Assembly: GCF_001485475.2 (NCBI RefSeq)
Contig: NZ_DF977000.1
Span: 248,001-312,000 of the forward strand
From: Tepidanaerobacter syntrophicus
GTDB taxonomy: Bacteria > Bacillota > Thermosediminibacteria > Thermosediminibacterales > Tepidanaerobacteraceae
Length of the DNA stretch: 64,000 nucleotides
Reading direction: 5' to 3'
Shown here: positions 46,091 through 53,709 of the stretch, piece after piece
Numbering within the stretch: the first letter of the stretch is position 1
Layout of the letters: each line of letters starts with the position of its first letter
The notes under the pieces: generated by a model
The model's database searches: none
Told to the model about the DNA's origin: nothing
The model's input: the letters and a program-made list of their open reading frames with translations, nothing else
Translations under genes and position numbers: made by a program

Positions 46091-46194
46091 TTGAGCCAAA
46101 GCATACAATATCATTATAAGCAGCAGCGTATATTGCCATCTTGAGCAGTCAGCTAACAATTGACACTAATGCTGCTGATTTTGAGCTGGTGCAT
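46091..46194 (+). promoter_or_regulatory. candidate activator sites: three TTGAGC repeats
   Basis: TTGAGC occurs at 46091, 46141 and 46181; two copies continue as TTGAGC-N4-GCAT. CAGCAGC (46121) and GCTGCTG (46171) also pair. They lie about 30-130 bases upstream of the -24/-12 promoter. Confidence 0.45.
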
Positions 46195-46218
46195 AGCATC
46201 ATACTAAGCGGCTGTACT

Positions 46219-46234
46219 TGGCACGATTTTTGCA
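46219..46234 (+). promoter_or_regulatory. perfect sigma-54 promoter of the levR-like gene
   Basis: TGGCAC-N5-TTGCA matches the -24/-12 consensus at every position. Transcription would start near 46245, 100 bases before the ATG at 46344. Confidence 0.85.
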
Positions 46235-46343
46235 ATTATATATTTTTACAAGGCTTATGATGAGACTTTAGCAAACCTCCTGCAAGATTCCTATTTTTTA
46301 TGGGCAATTGTTAGTTTAAAGACTTTTAGAAGGTGTATTATTT

Positions 46344-49106
46344 ATGGGTTTAAAAGAAGAATTACTGGAATATTTAAGAAATGAGACTGAAAAATTTAAT
46401 ATCAAAAGGCCCTCAGCCGGCTTAACTGCAAATTATATAGCAGACGTTTTTAAAGTAAAGAGGAATACAATAAGCCACTATCTAAATCAGTTGGTAAAAG
46501 AGGGAAAGGCCTTAAAGATAAATACCAGGCCTGTTTATTTCTTGAATCGGGCGGTGTTTGAATCAAAGTTTTACCCGCTGCCCACTAACATTCTTGAAAG
46601 CTTTCAAGAACTGGAAGATCTTAAACCTGTCAAAGAGCAGGAAACTGACGTTTTTGATGAGCTAATTGGTGCAGACGGCAGCCTTAAAAAAGCCATTACT
46701 CAAATCAAGGCATCGGTGCTTTATCCGGGCGGTCTGCCTATAATTTTATGCGGACCTACAGGCGTCGGAAAAAGTTTTACGGCAGAACTTATCTATAAAT
46801 ATTGTTTGGAAAAAAATATACTGCCAAAAAATGCACCCTTTGTAAGCTTTAACTGCGCTCAATATGCAAACAATCCCGAGCTTTTGTCGAGTAATTTGTT
46901 TGGCTATGCAAAAGGAGCATTTACAGGGGCAAACACAACAAAAGACGGTATGCTGGCGGCAGCCGACGGCGGCATACTATTTTTAGACGAGGTTCATCGA
47001 CTAAATGCAGAAGGGCAGGAGAAGCTCTTTACGCTTATGGATCAGGGAGTTTACCGAAGAATGGGAGAAAGCGACTCATGCCATCGGGTAAATGTTAGAT
47101 TGATATTTGCCACCACCGAAGAACTGGAAAAAAACTTTTTAAAGACTTTCCTCCGCCGCATTCCTATACGTATAACAATCCCGAGTCTGGATGAGCGGGG
47201 AGAGGCTGAAAAAGAGCAGTTTGTGTATATGTTTTTAATAAATGAAGCAAAAAAGGTTCATTTGCCGATACGAATAACAAATCGGGCAATGGAAGCACTG
47301 ACGCGCCATCGTTATACTGGGAATATGGGCGAACTTAAAAATACAATAAAATATATTGTGGCGGCATCCCTTGTTAAATCTCAAAACTTGGGAGAAGTTA
47401 GAATTACCATACAGGATTTGCCGGCAAACATAATAGAGGATAGCCTAAACTACAGTGATACAAAATTAAAAAATTCAAAGGAAATCATTATTGATGAAAA
47501 CTCAACGCTTGAAAAATTATATGAGCTCAATACTTCCCACCTAAAATGTATTAAAGACACCTACGAAAAAATTCTTTCGCTTTTTGCTAATTCTAAGGAA
47601 AAAGGATTTTCCCCGGAGTATTTTCAAGAAAATCTCATTAACGAGGTAAACGCCCTTCTTGACAACCTGATATTCAACAATACTCAGCAGGAACAGGGCA
47701 CAATGCTAAAACTCATGATAGCAAACGTTCAAGAAGCCCTTGAATACCTTAAGAAAAACTATGGAATAAAATTTAACGGCAACAGTATATATGCGATAGC
47801 TCACTTTTTATACTATAAAGGCAATAATTCTATTCACTGGTCAAAAAGGCAGGAACAGTTAATAAATCAGTTAATAGAAAGCATCAAGCCATTATATAAA
47901 TTTGAGCAGACGTTGGTGAAATACCTGGAAACTATCTTGGAAAATAAAGTGGATGTTAAACTTGACAAACTTGATAAGGTCTTTCTTTGGATATATTTAA
48001 GAAACCTGAAAGTCGCGGAGACTCCTCAAAAAGTTAAAGCCGTAATTCTAGCTCATGGATATGCTACTGCCAGTAGTATCGCAAATGTTGTAAACAGGTT
48101 ACTTGGAAAAAATATCTTCGAACCTTTTGATATGCCAATTGACATTTCAGTTGAAGAAATTGCTGCAAAAGTATTGGATTACATTAAAGACACTGATGTA
48201 TCAAAAGGACTTATAATACTTGTTGATATGGGCTCACTAAAGGATATATATCAGGAGTTTAAAGACCAAGTAAAAGGCCCTATAGCGATTATAAACAACG
48301 TGTCAACTCAGATGGCGCTTTATCTGGGCAGCATGTTGGACAAGGAACTATTCTTGGAAGAAATTGTAGAAAGGCTCAAAACAGAAAACCAAATTGAATA
48401 TAAGATAATTTATCCTAAAAGAAAAAAGGAAGATGTTATTATCACTTCATGCCAAACAGGGATAGGCACCGCGCTGCAGATTCAAAAACTATTAGAAGAC
48501 AGTATACCGCAAGAGCTGGGCATCAAAATCTTGGCCCACGATTATAATGCACTAAGGGAATCCGGTATGAATGAAGCAATATTTAAAGTGTATAATGTAC
48601 TTGCGATTATAGGGACAGCGGATCCGGGCATCAAAGAAATACCATATATTTCCCTTGAAGAGCTTATCGCAGGAGACAGTGAAGAAAAAATTCGAAAAGT
48701 CTTAAAACCGGCGGTAGGCGAAGAAGAACGCCTTTCTGAGATCAATAAAAATATTGTCAGAAATTGTTCTCTGGAACGCGTCATAGATTCGCTTACAATA
48801 CTCGACTGCAACAAAATTTTGTCGGAAGTTGAGGAATTTGTAAATCAACTAGAAGTTCGCTTAAAGCGGCGAATTTCAAATGAAAGAAAGATTGGACTTT
48901 ATGTTCATGTAAGCTGTCTTGTGGAAAGACTCATTCGCAGACAGCCCATTGAAACATATAAAAATATAAATAACTTTGAACAGTGTCAAAAAGAAATGAT
49001 AAAAATCATCAAAGAATCTTTTAGTGTCATAGAACAGACATATAGTGTCAAAATAAATACTGCGGAAATCGGCTATATATGCGATTTCTTAACGGCCGAG
49101 GTTTAA
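46344..49106 (+). CDS. LevR-type sigma-54 activator with PRD and PTS EIIA/EIIB-like domains
   Basis: A 920-residue regulator. Order: N-terminal HTH (about 20-60), AAA+ domain with Walker A GPTGVGKS (137-144) and GAFTGA (191-196), PRD1 (about 410-530), EIIA-mannose domain with LAHG (His 571), EIIB-Gat-like domain with SCQTGIG (Cys 703), and PRD2 (about 780-920). Such proteins turn on mannose-class PTS operons, controlled by phosphorylation at PRD histidines. The last PRD2 motif reads EIGYICDFL where a histidine is usual. Codon use is host-like, unlike the PTS genes that follow. Confidence 0.93.
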   Translation: MGLKEELLEYLRNETEKFNIKRPSAGLTANYIADVFKVKRNTISHYLNQLVKEGKALKINTRPVYFLNRAVFESKFYPLPTNILESFQELEDLKPVKEQETDVFDELIGADGSLKKAITQIKASVLYPGGLPIILCGPTGVGKSFTAELIYKYCLEKNILPKNAPFVSFNCAQYANNPELLSSNLFGYAKGAFTGANTTKDGMLAAADGGILFLDEVHRLNAEGQEKLFTLMDQGVYRRMGESDSCHRVNVRLIFATTEELEKNFLKTFLRRIPIRITIPSLDERGEAEKEQFVYMFLINEAKKVHLPIRITNRAMEALTRHRYTGNMGELKNTIKYIVAASLVKSQNLGEVRITIQDLPANIIEDSLNYSDTKLKNSKEIIIDENSTLEKLYELNTSHLKCIKDTYEKILSLFANSKEKGFSPEYFQENLINEVNALLDNLIFNNTQQEQGTMLKLMIANVQEALEYLKKNYGIKFNGNSIYAIAHFLYYKGNNSIHWSKRQEQLINQLIESIKPLYKFEQTLVKYLETILENKVDVKLDKLDKVFLWIYLRNLKVAETPQKVKAVILAHGYATASSIANVVNRLLGKNIFEPFDMPIDISVEEIAAKVLDYIKDTDVSKGLIILVDMGSLKDIYQEFKDQVKGPIAIINNVSTQMALYLGSMLDKELFLEEIVERLKTENQIEYKIIYPKRKKEDVIITSCQTGIGTALQIQKLLEDSIPQELGIKILAHDYNALRESGMNEAIFKVYNVLAIIGTADPGIKEIPYISLEELIAGDSEEKIRKVLKPAVGEEERLSEINKNIVRNCSLERVIDSLTILDCNKILSEVEEFVNQLEVRLKRRISNERKIGLYVHVSCLVERLIRRQPIETYKNINNFEQCQKEMIKIIKESFSVIEQTYSVKINTAEIGYICDFLTAEV

Positions 49107-49114
49107 AATAAAAG

Positions 49115-49143
49115 GCGTACCGGTAATTGGTACGCTTTTTGCA
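49115..49143 (+). promoter_or_regulatory. terminator fused with the sigma-54 promoter of the PTS operon
   Basis: GCGTACC (49115-49121) and GGTACGC (49129-49135) form a terminator stem followed by TTTTT. The same bases form TGGTAC-N5-TTGCA (49128-49143), a good -24/-12 promoter. Start near 49155, 70 bases before EIIA. Confidence 0.8.
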
Positions 49144-49226
49144 TTATATCTTAAATATAAAAAGAATACTAAAGCTCTTTAATTTATCATCTATGTAATT
49201 AGTCAATTAATCAGGAGGATATTGAA

Positions 49227-49661
49227 ATGATTAAATTTGTTTTCGCATCACATGGTATGCTAGCAGAAGGAATGCTTAATTCCCTTGAATTAATTATTGG
49301 AAAACAAAATAACGTTTATACAGTTTGCGCATATAAGGACGAAAATTTTGAATTAGCTAAAACAATAGATAAAATATTTGAAAGTATAGGAAGAGATGAC
49401 AAACTTATCGTTATAACAGATATTTTTGGGGGAAGTATTAATAATGAATTTTTAAGTCGCTTAAATGAAAAAAAATTCTATTTAATAAGCGGTCTAAATC
49501 TTCCACTTGTGATTGATCTGGTTGTCTCACTTAAAGATAAAAATAGCATAGAAGATAAAGAATTAGATAAAAATATAACAGAAATAGTTGCACGATCTAT
49601 CAAAAGTATTAAATATTGCAATCAAATTTTAGATGAGGTGCCCTGTGATGAAGATTTCTAA
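49227..49661 (+). CDS. PTS mannose-class EIIA component
   Basis: The 144-residue protein is an EIIA-Man with phospho-His9 in ASHGMLAEGM and the VITDIFGGSINNEF loop. It takes phosphate from HPr and gives it to EIIB. First gene of the sigma-54 operon, with GGAGG before the ATG. Strong A+T bias. Confidence 0.93.
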   Translation: MIKFVFASHGMLAEGMLNSLELIIGKQNNVYTVCAYKDENFELAKTIDKIFESIGRDDKLIVITDIFGGSINNEFLSRLNEKKFYLISGLNLPLVIDLVVSLKDKNSIEDKELDKNITEIVARSIKSIKYCNQILDEVPCDEDF

Positions 49662-49704
49662 GTCTGTTAAAATAAATGTGACTACAGAGGGAGAAGAAAG
49701 ATAA
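49648..49704 (+). CDS. possible 18-residue ORF between EIIA and epimerase
   Basis: An ATG at 49648 lies seven bases after GAGGTG inside the end of the EIIA gene and opens MKISKSVKINVTTEGEER before TAA, two bases from the next gene start. It may be a coupling ORF or a remnant of a deleted gene. Confidence 0.35.
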   Translation: MKISKSVKINVTTEGEER

Positions 49705-49705
49705 A

Positions 49706-50602
49706 ATGTTTTCGCTAGAAAATAATTTATATGCAATGAATACCCATTACAGATATTATCCACTAGAATATTTTTTTAAAGTAGCAAAACAAAATGGCTT
49801 TAAAAATGCCGAAATTTGGCTTTGTCCTCAACACTTTTTTATAAATTATAATGAGTCAGAAAATCCAAAAAAACTTCTAGAACTTTCAAAAACCTATGAT
49901 ATTAAAATCAAATGTTTGTGCCCAGAGCAAAATAATCCAAAGCCTAATAATATCGCAGCTCGTGATAAATTTTTAATTTCACGCACTTATAATTATTTTA
50001 AAAGAATTATCGATTTAGCGAACTATATAGGATGTAGCAAGGTTTTAGTTACTCCAGGTTGGAATTATTATGATGAAGAACTAACAATAGCGAGAAAGAG
50101 GTCTGCTACAATGTTAAAGAACATATGCGATTATGCAGAATCAAGGAGAGTCACCTTAGTACTAGAGAGTATATGGAAACAATCATCTGATATTGCTCCA
50201 AATATTGAAAAAATAAAAACTCTAAAAGAATCAATAAATAGAAAAAATTTAAAGCTCACAATTGATCTTGGAGCTATATCTGCAGCAAATGAAAGCATAA
50301 AAGATTGGTTTGAAGCCTTTGGAGAAGATATTGAGCACTGCCATTTTGTAGATGGTAATCCAACTGGCCATTTATCGTGGGGTAGAGGTAATCGAAATAT
50401 GACAAATGATTTAAAGCATTTTTATAAAAATGGATATAATGGAGGGTTTTCGCTTGAATTTGTTAATCCTGTTTGCTTTAGAAACCCTTCAGTAGAAGAT
50501 TTAAAGACTATTGAAATTTTCAAAAAAAGCTTGAGCGCTTTAAGCGAACATAAAAAATGCGAGAAAATGGAGGGCAATAAACAACATGATAAAACTTTTT
50601 AG
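49706..50602 (+). CDS. TIM-barrel sugar-phosphate isomerase/epimerase (AP_endonuc_2 fold)
   Basis: A 298-residue protein with metal ligands spaced as in D-tagatose/D-psicose 3-epimerases: Glu154 (LVLES), Asp187 (LTIDLG), His213 (EHCHFVDG) and Glu251 (FSLEF). In that family the metal binds a ketose and its C3 epimer is formed. Encoded within a PTS operon, it likely acts on a ketose phosphate. It overlaps EIIB by 17 bases. AT-rich. Confidence 0.85.
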   Translation: MFSLENNLYAMNTHYRYYPLEYFFKVAKQNGFKNAEIWLCPQHFFINYNESENPKKLLELSKTYDIKIKCLCPEQNNPKPNNIAARDKFLISRTYNYFKRIIDLANYIGCSKVLVTPGWNYYDEELTIARKRSATMLKNICDYAESRRVTLVLESIWKQSSDIAPNIEKIKTLKESINRKNLKLTIDLGAISAANESIKDWFEAFGEDIEHCHFVDGNPTGHLSWGRGNRNMTNDLKHFYKNGYNGGFSLEFVNPVCFRNPSVEDLKTIEIFKKSLSALSEHKKCEKMEGNKQHDKTF

Positions 50603-51059
50603 AGTAGATCATAGACTTTTACATGGCCAAGTTGCTTTTTCGTGGTGCAATGCAATAAATGCAAACGCGATTTTGATAGCTTCTGATGATGCCACTACCA
50701 ACGAAATTAGGAAAACAACAATTAAGCTAGCAAAGCCAGCAGGAATAAAACTAGTTATTAAAAATGTCGAAGATGCTGCAGAAACTATAAATAGCGGAGT
50801 TACAAACAAATATAACTTGATAATTATTGTAGAAAGTATAAAGGATGCTTATAGATTATTAGAAAAAACTGAGGAAATAAAGTCGCTAAATTTAGGGGGC
50901 ACTAAAAAAATTGAAGGAAGTGAGCAATTAAGTAAAGCACTTTATCTTACAGAAGAGGACAAAAAATTATTAAGAAAAATTCTAGAAAAAGGTATTGAAG
51001 TTGAAATAAGGCAAGTTCCTACTGATTCTAAAAGGATATTGACTCTAGAAATGCTATGA
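50586..51059 (+). CDS. PTS mannose-class EIIB component
   Basis: The 157-residue protein has the EIIB-Man/Lev signature with the phosphorylated His13 in RVDHRLLHGQVAFSW, followed by the DDATTNEIRK segment. It takes phosphate from EIIA and transfers it to sugar bound by EIIC/EIID. Its ATG lies inside the epimerase gene. Confidence 0.93.
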   Translation: MIKLFRVDHRLLHGQVAFSWCNAINANAILIASDDATTNEIRKTTIKLAKPAGIKLVIKNVEDAAETINSGVTNKYNLIIIVESIKDAYRLLEKTEEIKSLNLGGTKKIEGSEQLSKALYLTEEDKKLLRKILEKGIEVEIRQVPTDSKRILTLEML

Positions 51060-51196
51060 TCTTAAAAGTCCAAAGCTGAAATAAAGGAATTATATTAAAG
51101 TGAAAGGCGTATAAAAATATTTTTAAATGTCTTAAATTAAAACTTTTAATATTTTTTTGACAAAATAAGAAGAATTGTAATCATTTTTATTTGTGT

Positions 51197-51221
51197 ATTC
51201 TAAAGGTGGCCACCGTAGAAT
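51197..51221. promoter_or_regulatory. palindrome in the EIIB-EIIC gap
   Basis: ATTCTA...GGTGGCCACC...TAGAAT is a near-perfect dyad of 25 bases in the 239-base gap. It has no T-run on either side, so it looks like an operator or RNA stem rather than a terminator. The rest of the gap is AT-rich with no clear promoter. Confidence 0.45.
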
Positions 51222-51298
51222 AAATTAATAATTAAAGAAAGAATATAAAGTTAGTCTTTCCGAAAAGCAATTTTAGCCAGACAAGGAGGTAAGGTTAA

Positions 51299-52075
51299 AT
51301 GTTATTGATGCAATCTATTTTTATAGCCGCAATAACTTTTTTGGGGAAAGCGGATTACTGGTTAGGGACGGCTATGATAGAGCGCCCAATAGTTCTAGGA
51401 CCCTTAGTTGGGTTAGCGCTTGGCAATGTCCAAAAAGGTGTAAGCATTGGATTGACTTTAGAATTAATTTTTATGGGAATGCAAGCTATAGGAGCGTCTA
51501 TACCACCTGATATGGTTGTTGGTGGAGTTTTAGGGACTGCTTTTGCAATAAGTAGTGGAACAGGAACAGAAACAGCTATTGCTATAGCATTTCCTGCCGC
51601 AGTTCTCTCTGCTTTTATTGTAAATTTCTTTTATGGGGTTATTATACCTATTATGGCACGGCAGGCAGATAAAGGAGCATCAGAAGATAATTATAAAAAA
51701 ATAGAGCAAGTGCACATTTTTAGTGGTTTTTTATTCGATTTAGTATTTGCAATTTTAGCGGGCTTTGCTTTTTATGCGGGAAATGCAGTTGTCCAATCAA
51801 TCCTTAATGCGATTCCGAAATCTATTATAACTGGTATTCAAGTTGCTGCTGGCATTCTTCCGGCGCTAGGTTTTGCATTATTGATTCAAATGATAGCTAC
51901 AAAAAGAGTTATAGTATATTTTTTTGCAGGTTTTTTATTAGTAGCATATCTAAACATTCCCATAATTGGTGTTGTAGCATTTGCAATAGCTTTACTTGGA
52001 ATAATGTTTAGTTTTGGCGATTTTATTCCACAAAATAATAATTTAGAAGGTGAAATTAAAAATGATGACTTCTGA
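51299..52075 (+). CDS. PTS mannose-class EIIC component
   Basis: The 258-residue permease has about seven hydrophobic helices and the EIIC-Man/Sor motif RPIVLGPLVGLALGNVQKG (about 29-47, in part) and LELIFMGMQAIGASIPPD. GGAGG precedes the ATG. It overlaps EIID by 14 bases (52062 start). Confidence 0.93.
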   Translation: MLLMQSIFIAAITFLGKADYWLGTAMIERPIVLGPLVGLALGNVQKGVSIGLTLELIFMGMQAIGASIPPDMVVGGVLGTAFAISSGTGTETAIAIAFPAAVLSAFIVNFFYGVIIPIMARQADKGASEDNYKKIEQVHIFSGFLFDLVFAILAGFAFYAGNAVVQSILNAIPKSIITGIQVAAGILPALGFALLIQMIATKRVIVYFFAGFLLVAYLNIPIIGVVAFAIALLGIMFSFGDFIPQNNNLEGEIKNDDF

Positions 52076-52898
52076 TGCTAATTCTTTGAACGAATTAAAC
52101 AAAGTTACTAAAAAAGAATTAAGAAGCGTGTTTTGGAGGTCATTTACAACGTCCCATTCGTGGAATTATGAAAGACAACAACATATGGCATTTTGTTACT
52201 CAATGATTCCTGTTATTAGAAAACTCTATAAAAACAAAGAAGATAGAATAGAAGCTTATAAAAGACATCTTGAATTTTATAATTCTCAAGCAACAATGCA
52301 TCCTTTCATAGCAGCTATTGTAACAGCAATGGAAGAAGAAAATGCTAATAATCCAAATTTTGATGCTTCATCTATTAGCGCTATGAAAGTTGCATTAATG
52401 GGACCACTTGCAGCAATTGGAGATTCCTTATTAGCTGGCACATTAAGGATAATTGCTACAGGAATTGCTGCTGGATTTTGCACTGTGGGTAATATTCTTG
52501 GTCCGATATTATTTTTGCTTATTTACAATATACCTACAATTTCACTGCGCTATATAGGGGTAACGCAAGGATATAAACTTGGCACCACCTTTATGACAAG
52601 GATATCAGAAAGTGATATTATGGAAAAAGTTACATTTGCAACCTCGGTAGTTGGGTTAATGGTTATTGGCGCAATGGTTGCAAGTTTGGTTAATGTTACA
52701 ACGCCAATTGCTTTCGGTATAGGAGAAAATAAAATAGCCCTTCAAGAAACACTTGATTCAATCTTTCCTAAGCTATTACCTTTAGTGACTACAGGAATTA
52801 TTTATCAATTTATAAAAAAGAAAGCAAAAGTTATCAATGTATTAATTGGCATAATTGTTGCTGGAATTGTATTGAGTATGTTGGGCATTATAGGCTAA
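52062..52898 (+). CDS. PTS mannose-class EIID component
   Basis: The 278-residue protein matches EIID: KELRSVFWRSFTTSHSWNYERQQ near the N-terminus, MKVALMGPLAAIGDSLLAGT (about 105-125) and C-terminal helices. The ATG at 52062 is favoured over the ATG at 52050 because of GGTG upstream. With EIIC it forms the sugar-conducting unit. Confidence 0.92.
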   Translation: MMTSDANSLNELNKVTKKELRSVFWRSFTTSHSWNYERQQHMAFCYSMIPVIRKLYKNKEDRIEAYKRHLEFYNSQATMHPFIAAIVTAMEEENANNPNFDASSISAMKVALMGPLAAIGDSLLAGTLRIIATGIAAGFCTVGNILGPILFLLIYNIPTISLRYIGVTQGYKLGTTFMTRISESDIMEKVTFATSVVGLMVIGAMVASLVNVTTPIAFGIGENKIALQETLDSIFPKLLPLVTTGIIYQFIKKKAKVINVLIGIIVAGIVLSMLGIIG

Positions 52899-53019
52899 TA
52901 TAACATTTATCTTAAAATAAATATTGGTTTTTTAGAAACTATTTTAGAAACTTTCAGAGTAACTATAGGGCAAGTTAGAGATTTGTAGAAATTATTATAA
53001 TTTTTAGGAGATGACTGAA

Positions 53020-53709
53020 GTGATTTATAGTCTAGATTCGGCAGATATTAATACAATTAAAAAAGGTTTGGAGAAATTTCCAATAAAAGCATTTAGCATG
53101 AATCCGTCAATTGCGGCAAGAGATTTAAAAGGATCAAGGAAATCTTTTTTTGAATCTTTGCAAGAGATACGAAAAACAATTGGAGAAGATGCAGAATTAT
53201 ATGTGCAGGTTGTTGGAGAGTCTGTTGGTGAGATGGTTGAAGATGCTAAAATTATAAGAAAAAACGTTAGCGGAAATTTGCTCATCAAAATTCCTGCGTG
53301 CGAAAACGGATTTAAAGCCATACAATTATTAAAAGAAGAAGGGTATAAAGTAGCATGTACAGCTGTGATGACACTTAATCAGGCTCTGCTTGCTGCAGCT
53401 GCTGGAGCAGATATAATTGCAGTTTATATAAGTAGGATTAATAAAAATGGAGGAGATGGCATTAAATTATTGGAGGATATTACTAAAGCCTATAAATTGT
53501 TAAATTGTAATGTTATGATAAGCGCTGCATCAATAAAAGATCCTAATACTGTTGAAAGGGCTGCTTTAGCAGGTGCCCAATGCGTAGCTGTAAGCTATGA
53601 ACTGCTTGAAGCATGTGCTACTCATCCACTAACCCCTATAACATTAGCTGGCTTTAGAAGAGATTGGGAAGATACTTACGGAAAAAATAAGAGATTATCC
53701 GAGCTATAA
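53020..53709 (+). CDS. fructose-6-phosphate aldolase-like transaldolase (FSA family)
   Basis: The 229-residue TalB/FSA-like protein has the conserved Asp in YSLDSAD, the Schiff-base lysine in LIKIPAC (about 88) and the tyrosine of AVYISRI, matching the catalytic Asp-Lys-Tyr set of fructose-6-phosphate aldolase. It would split a ketose-6-phosphate into dihydroxyacetone and glyceraldehyde-3-phosphate. ATG at 53011 has no spacing to GGAG, so the GTG at 53020 (nine bases away) is chosen. Confidence 0.88.
   Translation: MIYSLDSADINTIKKGLEKFPIKAFSMNPSIAARDLKGSRKSFFESLQEIRKTIGEDAELYVQVVGESVGEMVEDAKIIRKNVSGNLLIKIPACENGFKAIQLLKEEGYKVACTAVMTLNQALLAAAAGADIIAVYISRINKNGGDGIKLLEDITKAYKLLNCNVMISAASIKDPNTVERAALAGAQCVAVSYELLEACATHPLTPITLAGFRRDWEDTYGKNKRLSEL

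Follow-up and report, generated by a model that had tools for sequence, protein, structure and literature searches.

Related systems

Three described systems are close to the operon analysed here. The Gfr system is the fructoselysine/glucoselysine phosphotransferase system (PTS) of Salmonella and clostridia (GfrABCDEF/GfrR), in which a mannose-class PTS, a LevR-like sigma-54 activator and the catabolic genes are combined in one operon (PMC4987338, PMC6615313). The frlABCDR operon of Escherichia coli encodes the fructoselysine 3-epimerase FrlC and has FrlA and a kinase where the operon described here has a PTS. In the ptsA-fsaB-gldA cluster of E. coli, a fructose-6-phosphate aldolase (FSA) gene adjoins those for a PTS component and a glycerol dehydrogenase, and no clear physiological function has yet been assigned to FsaA or to the fsaB operon (PMC6643234).

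The operon analysed here lies in a 64-kb stretch of the Tepidanaerobacter syntrophicus genome, referred to below as the window, and resembles each of these systems in part. Its PTS class, its type of activator and the inclusion of the catabolic genes in the operon are those of Gfr; Gfr, however, has two deglycases (GfrE and GfrF) and neither an epimerase nor an aldolase, whereas the window operon lacks a SIS gene and encodes an epimerase together with an FSA-like aldolase. Since a SIS deglycase is missing from the operon, we do not class it as Gfr/Frl despite the similar regulation and transport. The FrlC model is the best curated match to the epimerase and the metal site is common to both, but the epimerase shares just 23% identity with the E. 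coli protein and lacks the second Glu of FrlC. The E. coli fsaB-gldA pairing beside a PTS gene recurs in a related operon of Clostridiales bacterium VE202-21; the E. coli cluster nevertheless has no epimerase and no mannose-class EIIABCD, and FsaB and the window FSA share 31% identity. Operons of Enterococcus and Vagococcus share the regulator type, the PTS, the epimerase family and a near-identical gene order, but have a FrlB-like SIS protein where the window operon has its FSA, retain a glutamate at epimerase residue 160, and place the epimerase gene after that for EIIB rather than before it. D-Tagatose/D-psicose 3-epimerases (DTE) and UlaE have the fold and the catalytic metal site of the window epimerase, yet identities are about 11–18% and the C1-binding Glu158 and His188 are not conserved.

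Organisation and control of the operon

Open reading frames with Pfam and NCBIfam matches between 46344 and 53709 define an activator, EIIA, epimerase, EIIB, EIIC, EIID and an FSA-like aldolase, all on the forward strand (Table 1), in agreement with the initial annotation, which had described a sigma-54 PTS operon with an epimerase and an FSA-like aldolase. All four PTS components score above their Pfam cutoffs, and the active-site histidines of EIIA and EIIB are present. The nearest NCBIfam models are those of GalNAc systems for EIIC and general mannose-family models for EIIB and EIID. The start of the aldolase gene is likely the GTG at 53020 rather than the ATG that opens the reading frame in Table 1, because it matches the N-termini of homologues and the spacing to the ribosome-binding site. 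The EIIB and EIIC genes are separated by an unusual gap of 239 bp (51060–51298), compared with some 20 bp in the VE202-21 operon; it contains a TTGACA-like hexamer.

Table 1. Genes and transcription signals of the operon (window coordinates)
Feature	Position	Strand	Match or remark
Sigma-54 (-24/-12) promoter upstream of regulator, TGGCACGATTTTTGCA	46219–46234	+	Perfect consensus
LevR/DagR-type sigma-54 activator, 920 aa	46344–49106	+	Pfam Sigma54_activat, EIIA-man, PRD
Intrinsic terminator hairpin after regulator, 15 pairs	49109–49141	+	Overlaps EIIA-side sigma-54 site
Sigma-54 promoter upstream of EIIA, TGGTACGCTTTTTGCA	49128–49143	+	Perfect consensus
PTS EIIA, mannose class, active-site His9	49227–49661	+	PF03610 EIIA-man, 9e-18
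FrlC-branch sugar 3-epimerase, TIM barrel, Ser160 replacing O1-binding Glu	49706–50602	+	PF01261 AP_endonuc_2; NF007360 best, below cutoff
PTS EIIB, mannose/sorbose class, DHRLLHGQV motif, His9 and His13	50586–51059	+	PF03830 PTSIIB_sorb, 1e-48
PTS EIIC, mannose/sorbose class	51299–52075	+	PF03609 EII-Sor, 2e-64
PTS EIID, mannose class	52050–52898	+	PF03613 EIID-AGA, 1e-102
Divergent fructose-6-phosphate-aldolase-like enzyme	53011–53709	+	PF00923 TAL_FSA, 2e-44

The regulator has the make-up of a LevR-like activator: an AAA+ domain with Walker A and GAFTGA motifs, an EIIA-like domain (His571) and a C-terminal PRD (His855), with a sigma-54 site upstream of the operon. GAFTGA and both histidines are conserved among its relatives. 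Perfect matches to TGGYACRNNNNTTGCW occur twice in the entire 64 kb, against 0.05 expected, and the two flank the regulator gene. The 3' arm of the hairpin that follows this gene contains the -24 element of the EIIA-side promoter. As hairpin and promoter use common bases, a single element (49109–49143) may serve both, ending transcription of the regulator and starting that of the operon.

The window regulator is 45% identical to the regulator of a deglycase operon. Unlike the window protein, the LevR-like regulators of five epimerase operons (L034, which is that of VE202-21, L038, L041, L045 and L092) lack GAFTGA and hence probably work without sigma-54, which suggests that enzyme cassettes of this kind have been recombined with different regulators.

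The epimerase belongs to the FrlC branch

Alignment places residues E154, D187, H213 and E251 of the epimerase opposite the DTE metal ligands E152, D185, H211 and E246; they are invariant across the aligned relatives. An AlphaFold model (mean pLDDT 91) has UlaE L-xylulose-5-phosphate 3-epimerase and D-tagatose 3-epimerase as its best fold matches in the PDB. Alignment and model thus support a sugar 3-epimerase fold with a catalytic metal site, and the DTE-like ligand spacing noted in the initial annotation holds. Membership of the D-tagatose/D-psicose branch is not supported: the nearest curated family is FrlC. Of all NCBIfam models, the FrlC model NF007360 scores best, with 91 bits (cutoff 305); the DTE model NF051856 gives 29 bits (cutoff 300). 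As judged from its sequence, the enzyme belongs to the FrlC branch, with a score below the equivalog cutoff. Among the genomic partners typical of FrlC, the PTS is present, and a SIS deglycase gene is absent from the operon and found only elsewhere in the genome. Both substrate C1/C2-binding residues of DTE are absent; residue 160 is Ser where DTE has Glu158, and the segment DLGAIS after D187 is without the histidine corresponding to His188.

An FSA-like protein with substitutions at the donor pocket

The FSA-like protein scores 162 bits with the FSA equivalog model TIGR00875, for which the cutoff is 246. In a residue survey the catalytic Asp9, Lys93 and Tyr139, already reported as intact, correspond to D6, K85 and Y131 of E. 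coli FSA, and of the other characteristic E. coli positions N28, Q59, T109 and A129 are retained, the VE202-21 enzyme carrying Glu at the FSA-typical Gln59. The acceptor-phosphate residues S30, R134, S166 and K168 are likewise kept, the last three as R142, S174 and K176 (roles of phosphate-site and catalytic residues, PMC13259622).

It is in the donor pocket that the protein departs from its family, with A115, C116, V138 and S171, of which A115 and S171 occupy E. coli positions 107 and 163. The replacement of both leucines by Ala in E. coli FSA is a design that reportedly originated in a study by Guclu in 2016. The two substitutions are described, in passages of later papers, as a means of admitting bulkier donors (PMC9355150, PMC8097096). 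In E. coli numbering, the FSAs of the window and VE202-21 operons have Ala or Ser at 107 and Cys at 108, and S26, V130 and S163 are found in these two alone among 37 FSA/TalC proteins, the other 35 lacking them. We rejected L107A as a stand-alone signature: Leu, Thr, Ala and Asn all occur at position 107 across the family. Since that position varies so widely, S163, with its neighbours, is the distinctive substitution.

FSA relatives at 35–43% identity in other contexts do not explain the operon. They mostly have the canonical T107/L163 and lie beside transketolase halves and another PTS, or beside an alcohol dehydrogenase and a second aldolase.

Distribution and genomic partners

The epimerase alignment, run against 84,980 species genomes, yielded 42 loci, and searches of Bacillota genomes added others. 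Nearly all close relatives in public genomes sit with a FrlB-like SIS deglycase, pointing to Amadori-product catabolism, several of them in an otherwise matching PTS operon. The closest PTS-linked relatives belong to LevR-EIIA-EIIB-epimerase-EIIC-EIID-SIS operons of Enterococcus, Vagococcus and Tetragenococcus; rearranged PTS versions with a SIS gene occur in Coriobacteriia, an Angelakisella bin and others. The SIS protein of these sister operons has fructoselysine-6-phosphate deglycase as its best NCBIfam model, below cutoff, and is called FrlB-like for that reason. Further relatives lie in frl-type loci with PfkB kinase and transporter genes.

An FSA fills the deglycase slot in only two genomes, those of the window and of VE202-21. 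The order EIIA-epimerase-EIIB-EIIC-EIID-FSA, whose recurrence was the check proposed at the outset, is exactly repeated in this one other genome, with identities of 41% (EIIA), 57% (epimerase), 57% (EIIB), 57% (EIIC), 64% (EIID) and 48% (FSA). Repetition of the exact order in an unrelated genome indicates that the arrangement is not due to chance. In VE202-21 a glycerol dehydrogenase gene, whose product scores above the GldA subfamily cutoff, begins 35 bp after the FSA gene; its homologue was not found in the window genome.

Four epimerase loci (L028 and L071–L073) combine a mannose-class PTS and the same epimerase family with a class II aldolase and a mannitol-1-phosphate-dehydrogenase-like protein, together with an alcohol dehydrogenase in some and, in L028, an aldo-keto reductase and a DeoC-like aldolase. 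These operons look like ones for hexitol/ketose catabolism.

The identity of residue 160 follows the genomic partner. Its DTE equivalent, Glu158, hydrogen bonds to the substrate O1 in ketose 3-epimerases (PMC8167858). Every one of the 36 dereplicated relatives with a visible SIS and/or PfkB partner has Glu here, E. coli FrlC included, as do four relatives with no visible partner. The six aldolase-coupled epimerases all lack it: both FSA-coupled enzymes have Ser, while the four that go with class II aldolases have Ser, Trp, Gln or Pro. For the 46-row set the Fisher p is about 1e-7, with relatedness among rows ignored. In the epimerase tree, the FSA and class II aldolase (FBA) types form two clades inside the PTS group, though a topology that unites them is compatible with the AU test (p = 0.50). 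Residue 160 may therefore have changed once or twice, and a single event may account for the aldolase-coupled enzymes. As far as their sequences tell, epimerase and FSA both differ from their relatives at the end of the substrate that carries C1.

Proposed pathway and its alternatives

We propose, with a probability of about one half, that the operon encodes a pathway under sigma-54 control in which an unusual ketose, or a sugar resembling one, enters through the PTS and is broken down by an aldolase. From its family, EIIABCD would import the sugar and phosphorylate it, most likely at C6; the retained FSA phosphate site likewise argues for a 6-phosphate. The fold, metal site and family of the FrlC-branch enzyme suggest that it would invert C3 of the ketose phosphate, giving the 3S,4R form taken by FSA-type enzymes. 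With its catalytic and phosphate-site residues intact, the FSA-like enzyme could then form a Schiff base through Lys93 and release glyceraldehyde 3-phosphate and a three-carbon ketone, either dihydroxyacetone or a C1-modified analogue. This ketone might pass to DhaKLM, encoded in the window genome, or, in VE202-21, be reduced by the glycerol dehydrogenase encoded after the FSA. The activator would read PTS flux through the histidines of its EIIA-like and PRD domains and fire the two sigma-54 promoters. Counting against the proposal are the occurrence of the FSA form in just two genomes, the Glu at position 59 of the VE202-21 enzyme, the lack of a homologue of its GldA in the window genome, and the chance that residue 160 changed only once. 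So viewed, the operon may be a variant of the Gfr/Frl kind with an aldolase in place of the deglycase.

The outline matches what the initial annotation had put forward, namely PTS uptake of a rare ketose, C3 epimerisation and aldol cleavage to dihydroxyacetone and glyceraldehyde 3-phosphate. The epimerase fold and metal site, the FSA residues, the VE202-21 synteny with its GldA and dhaKLM all speak for that part; the DTE branch and plain D-psicose as substrate are not supported. D-Psicose 6-phosphate is an unlikely substrate, as epimerisation at C3 would turn it into fructose 6-phosphate, for which no aldolase is needed, and with the His188 equivalent also missing, nothing in particular speaks for a plain C1-hydroxyl ketose. 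A non-standard ketose, whether of the L-series, C1-modified or derived from an oxidised hexitol, would make more sense, and its C1 end is probably different from that of a fructosamine. More tentatively, the operon may serve to degrade C1-modified ketose 6-phosphates aldolytically in nature: instead of the deglycase of Amadori operons, an enzyme of an FSA subfamily with a widened donor pocket would act on them, yielding glyceraldehyde 3-phosphate and a substituted hydroxyacetone. If so, this cleavage would be a new reaction in the catabolism of glycation products or rare sugars and would, for the first time, give an FSA a clear role in physiology.

An Amadori-type substrate, a 1-amino-1-deoxyketose, must be considered because most of the syntenic PTS operons, among them those of Enterococcus, Vagococcus, Tetragenococcus and the Angelakisella bin, end in a FrlB-like deglycase. 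After PTS import as the 6-phosphate, the epimerase would convert the psicosamine form to the fructosamine form and the FSA, replacing the deglycase, would cut C3–C4 to give glyceraldehyde 3-phosphate and an N-substituted aminohydroxyacetone. The FrlC affinity of the epimerase and the regulator's kinship to that of a deglycase operon point the same way, and L163S with the nearby changes could open room at C1. We nonetheless think it unlikely: Glu160, kept in every deglycase-coupled relative, has been lost here, an amino-ketone would be left over for disposal, and we know of no natural FSA that cleaves Amadori phosphates. The deglycase might instead act in trans, with the FSA as an accessory that drains excess fructose 6-phosphate or dihydroxyacetone. 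Deglycases do exist in this genome, as at least three of its other loci pair a FrlB-like SIS protein with a PfkB kinase. That a divergent, operon-specific FSA subfamily keeps its position alongside this PTS and epimerase in another genome, and that the epimerase active site is unlike all deglycase-coupled ones, makes such an arrangement improbable.

A ketose 1-phosphate as the PTS product, cleaved to dihydroxyacetone phosphate and glyceraldehyde with GldA reducing the latter, has precedent in the mannose-class sorbose and levan systems, which form ketose 1-phosphates. The lost O1-site Glu and the polar substitutions in the FSA donor pocket could suit a phosphate at C1, and class II aldolases, of the dihydroxyacetone phosphate type, take the place of the FSA in sister operons. 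We regard it as very unlikely, since EIIC, EIIB and EIID are nearest to GalNAc and general mannose-family models, and GalNAc and mannose systems form 6-phosphates; moreover, the residues that bind the C6 acceptor phosphate are all retained (PMC13259622).

Returning to the aldolytic pathway, the switch from deglycase to aldolase, with its matching change at the epimerase C1 site, makes a clear prediction about the substrates of the two operon types. With an FSA relative inside a dedicated inducible sugar operon, the natural substrate should be findable from the inducer, and an FSA whose donor pocket has changed in nature may prove of use as a biocatalyst.

Genome context and origin

The host genome (2.43 Mb) belongs to the same genus as T. 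acetatoxydans Re1. Both genus relatives lack the operon at the matching position, where conserved flanking genes enclose a different gene. The epimerase is absent from all 25 other members of the class that were searched, so vertical inheritance is not supported, and the GC content of the enzyme and PTS part is 28–34%, against mostly 36–40% in the flanks. We conclude that the operon was likely acquired horizontally. Searches of viral contigs gave no relatives, and those of plasmids only distant FrlC-like ones. In Re1 a convergent gene encoding a 436-residue nucleotide-binding protein (L150, 5161–6471) occupies the place of the operon; with another gene in the gap, a clean empty site is not demonstrable.

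Two of the loci with FrlB-like SIS and PfkB genes in the host genome (L155, L157 and L158) also carry ABC transporter and GntR genes, and the three together suggest a strong use of glycation products by the host. Elsewhere in the same genome (L156, C6:176500–190500), a second LevR-controlled mannose-class PTS operon encodes AgaS/SIS-like proteins and a probable N-acetylhexosamine-6-phosphate deacetylase.
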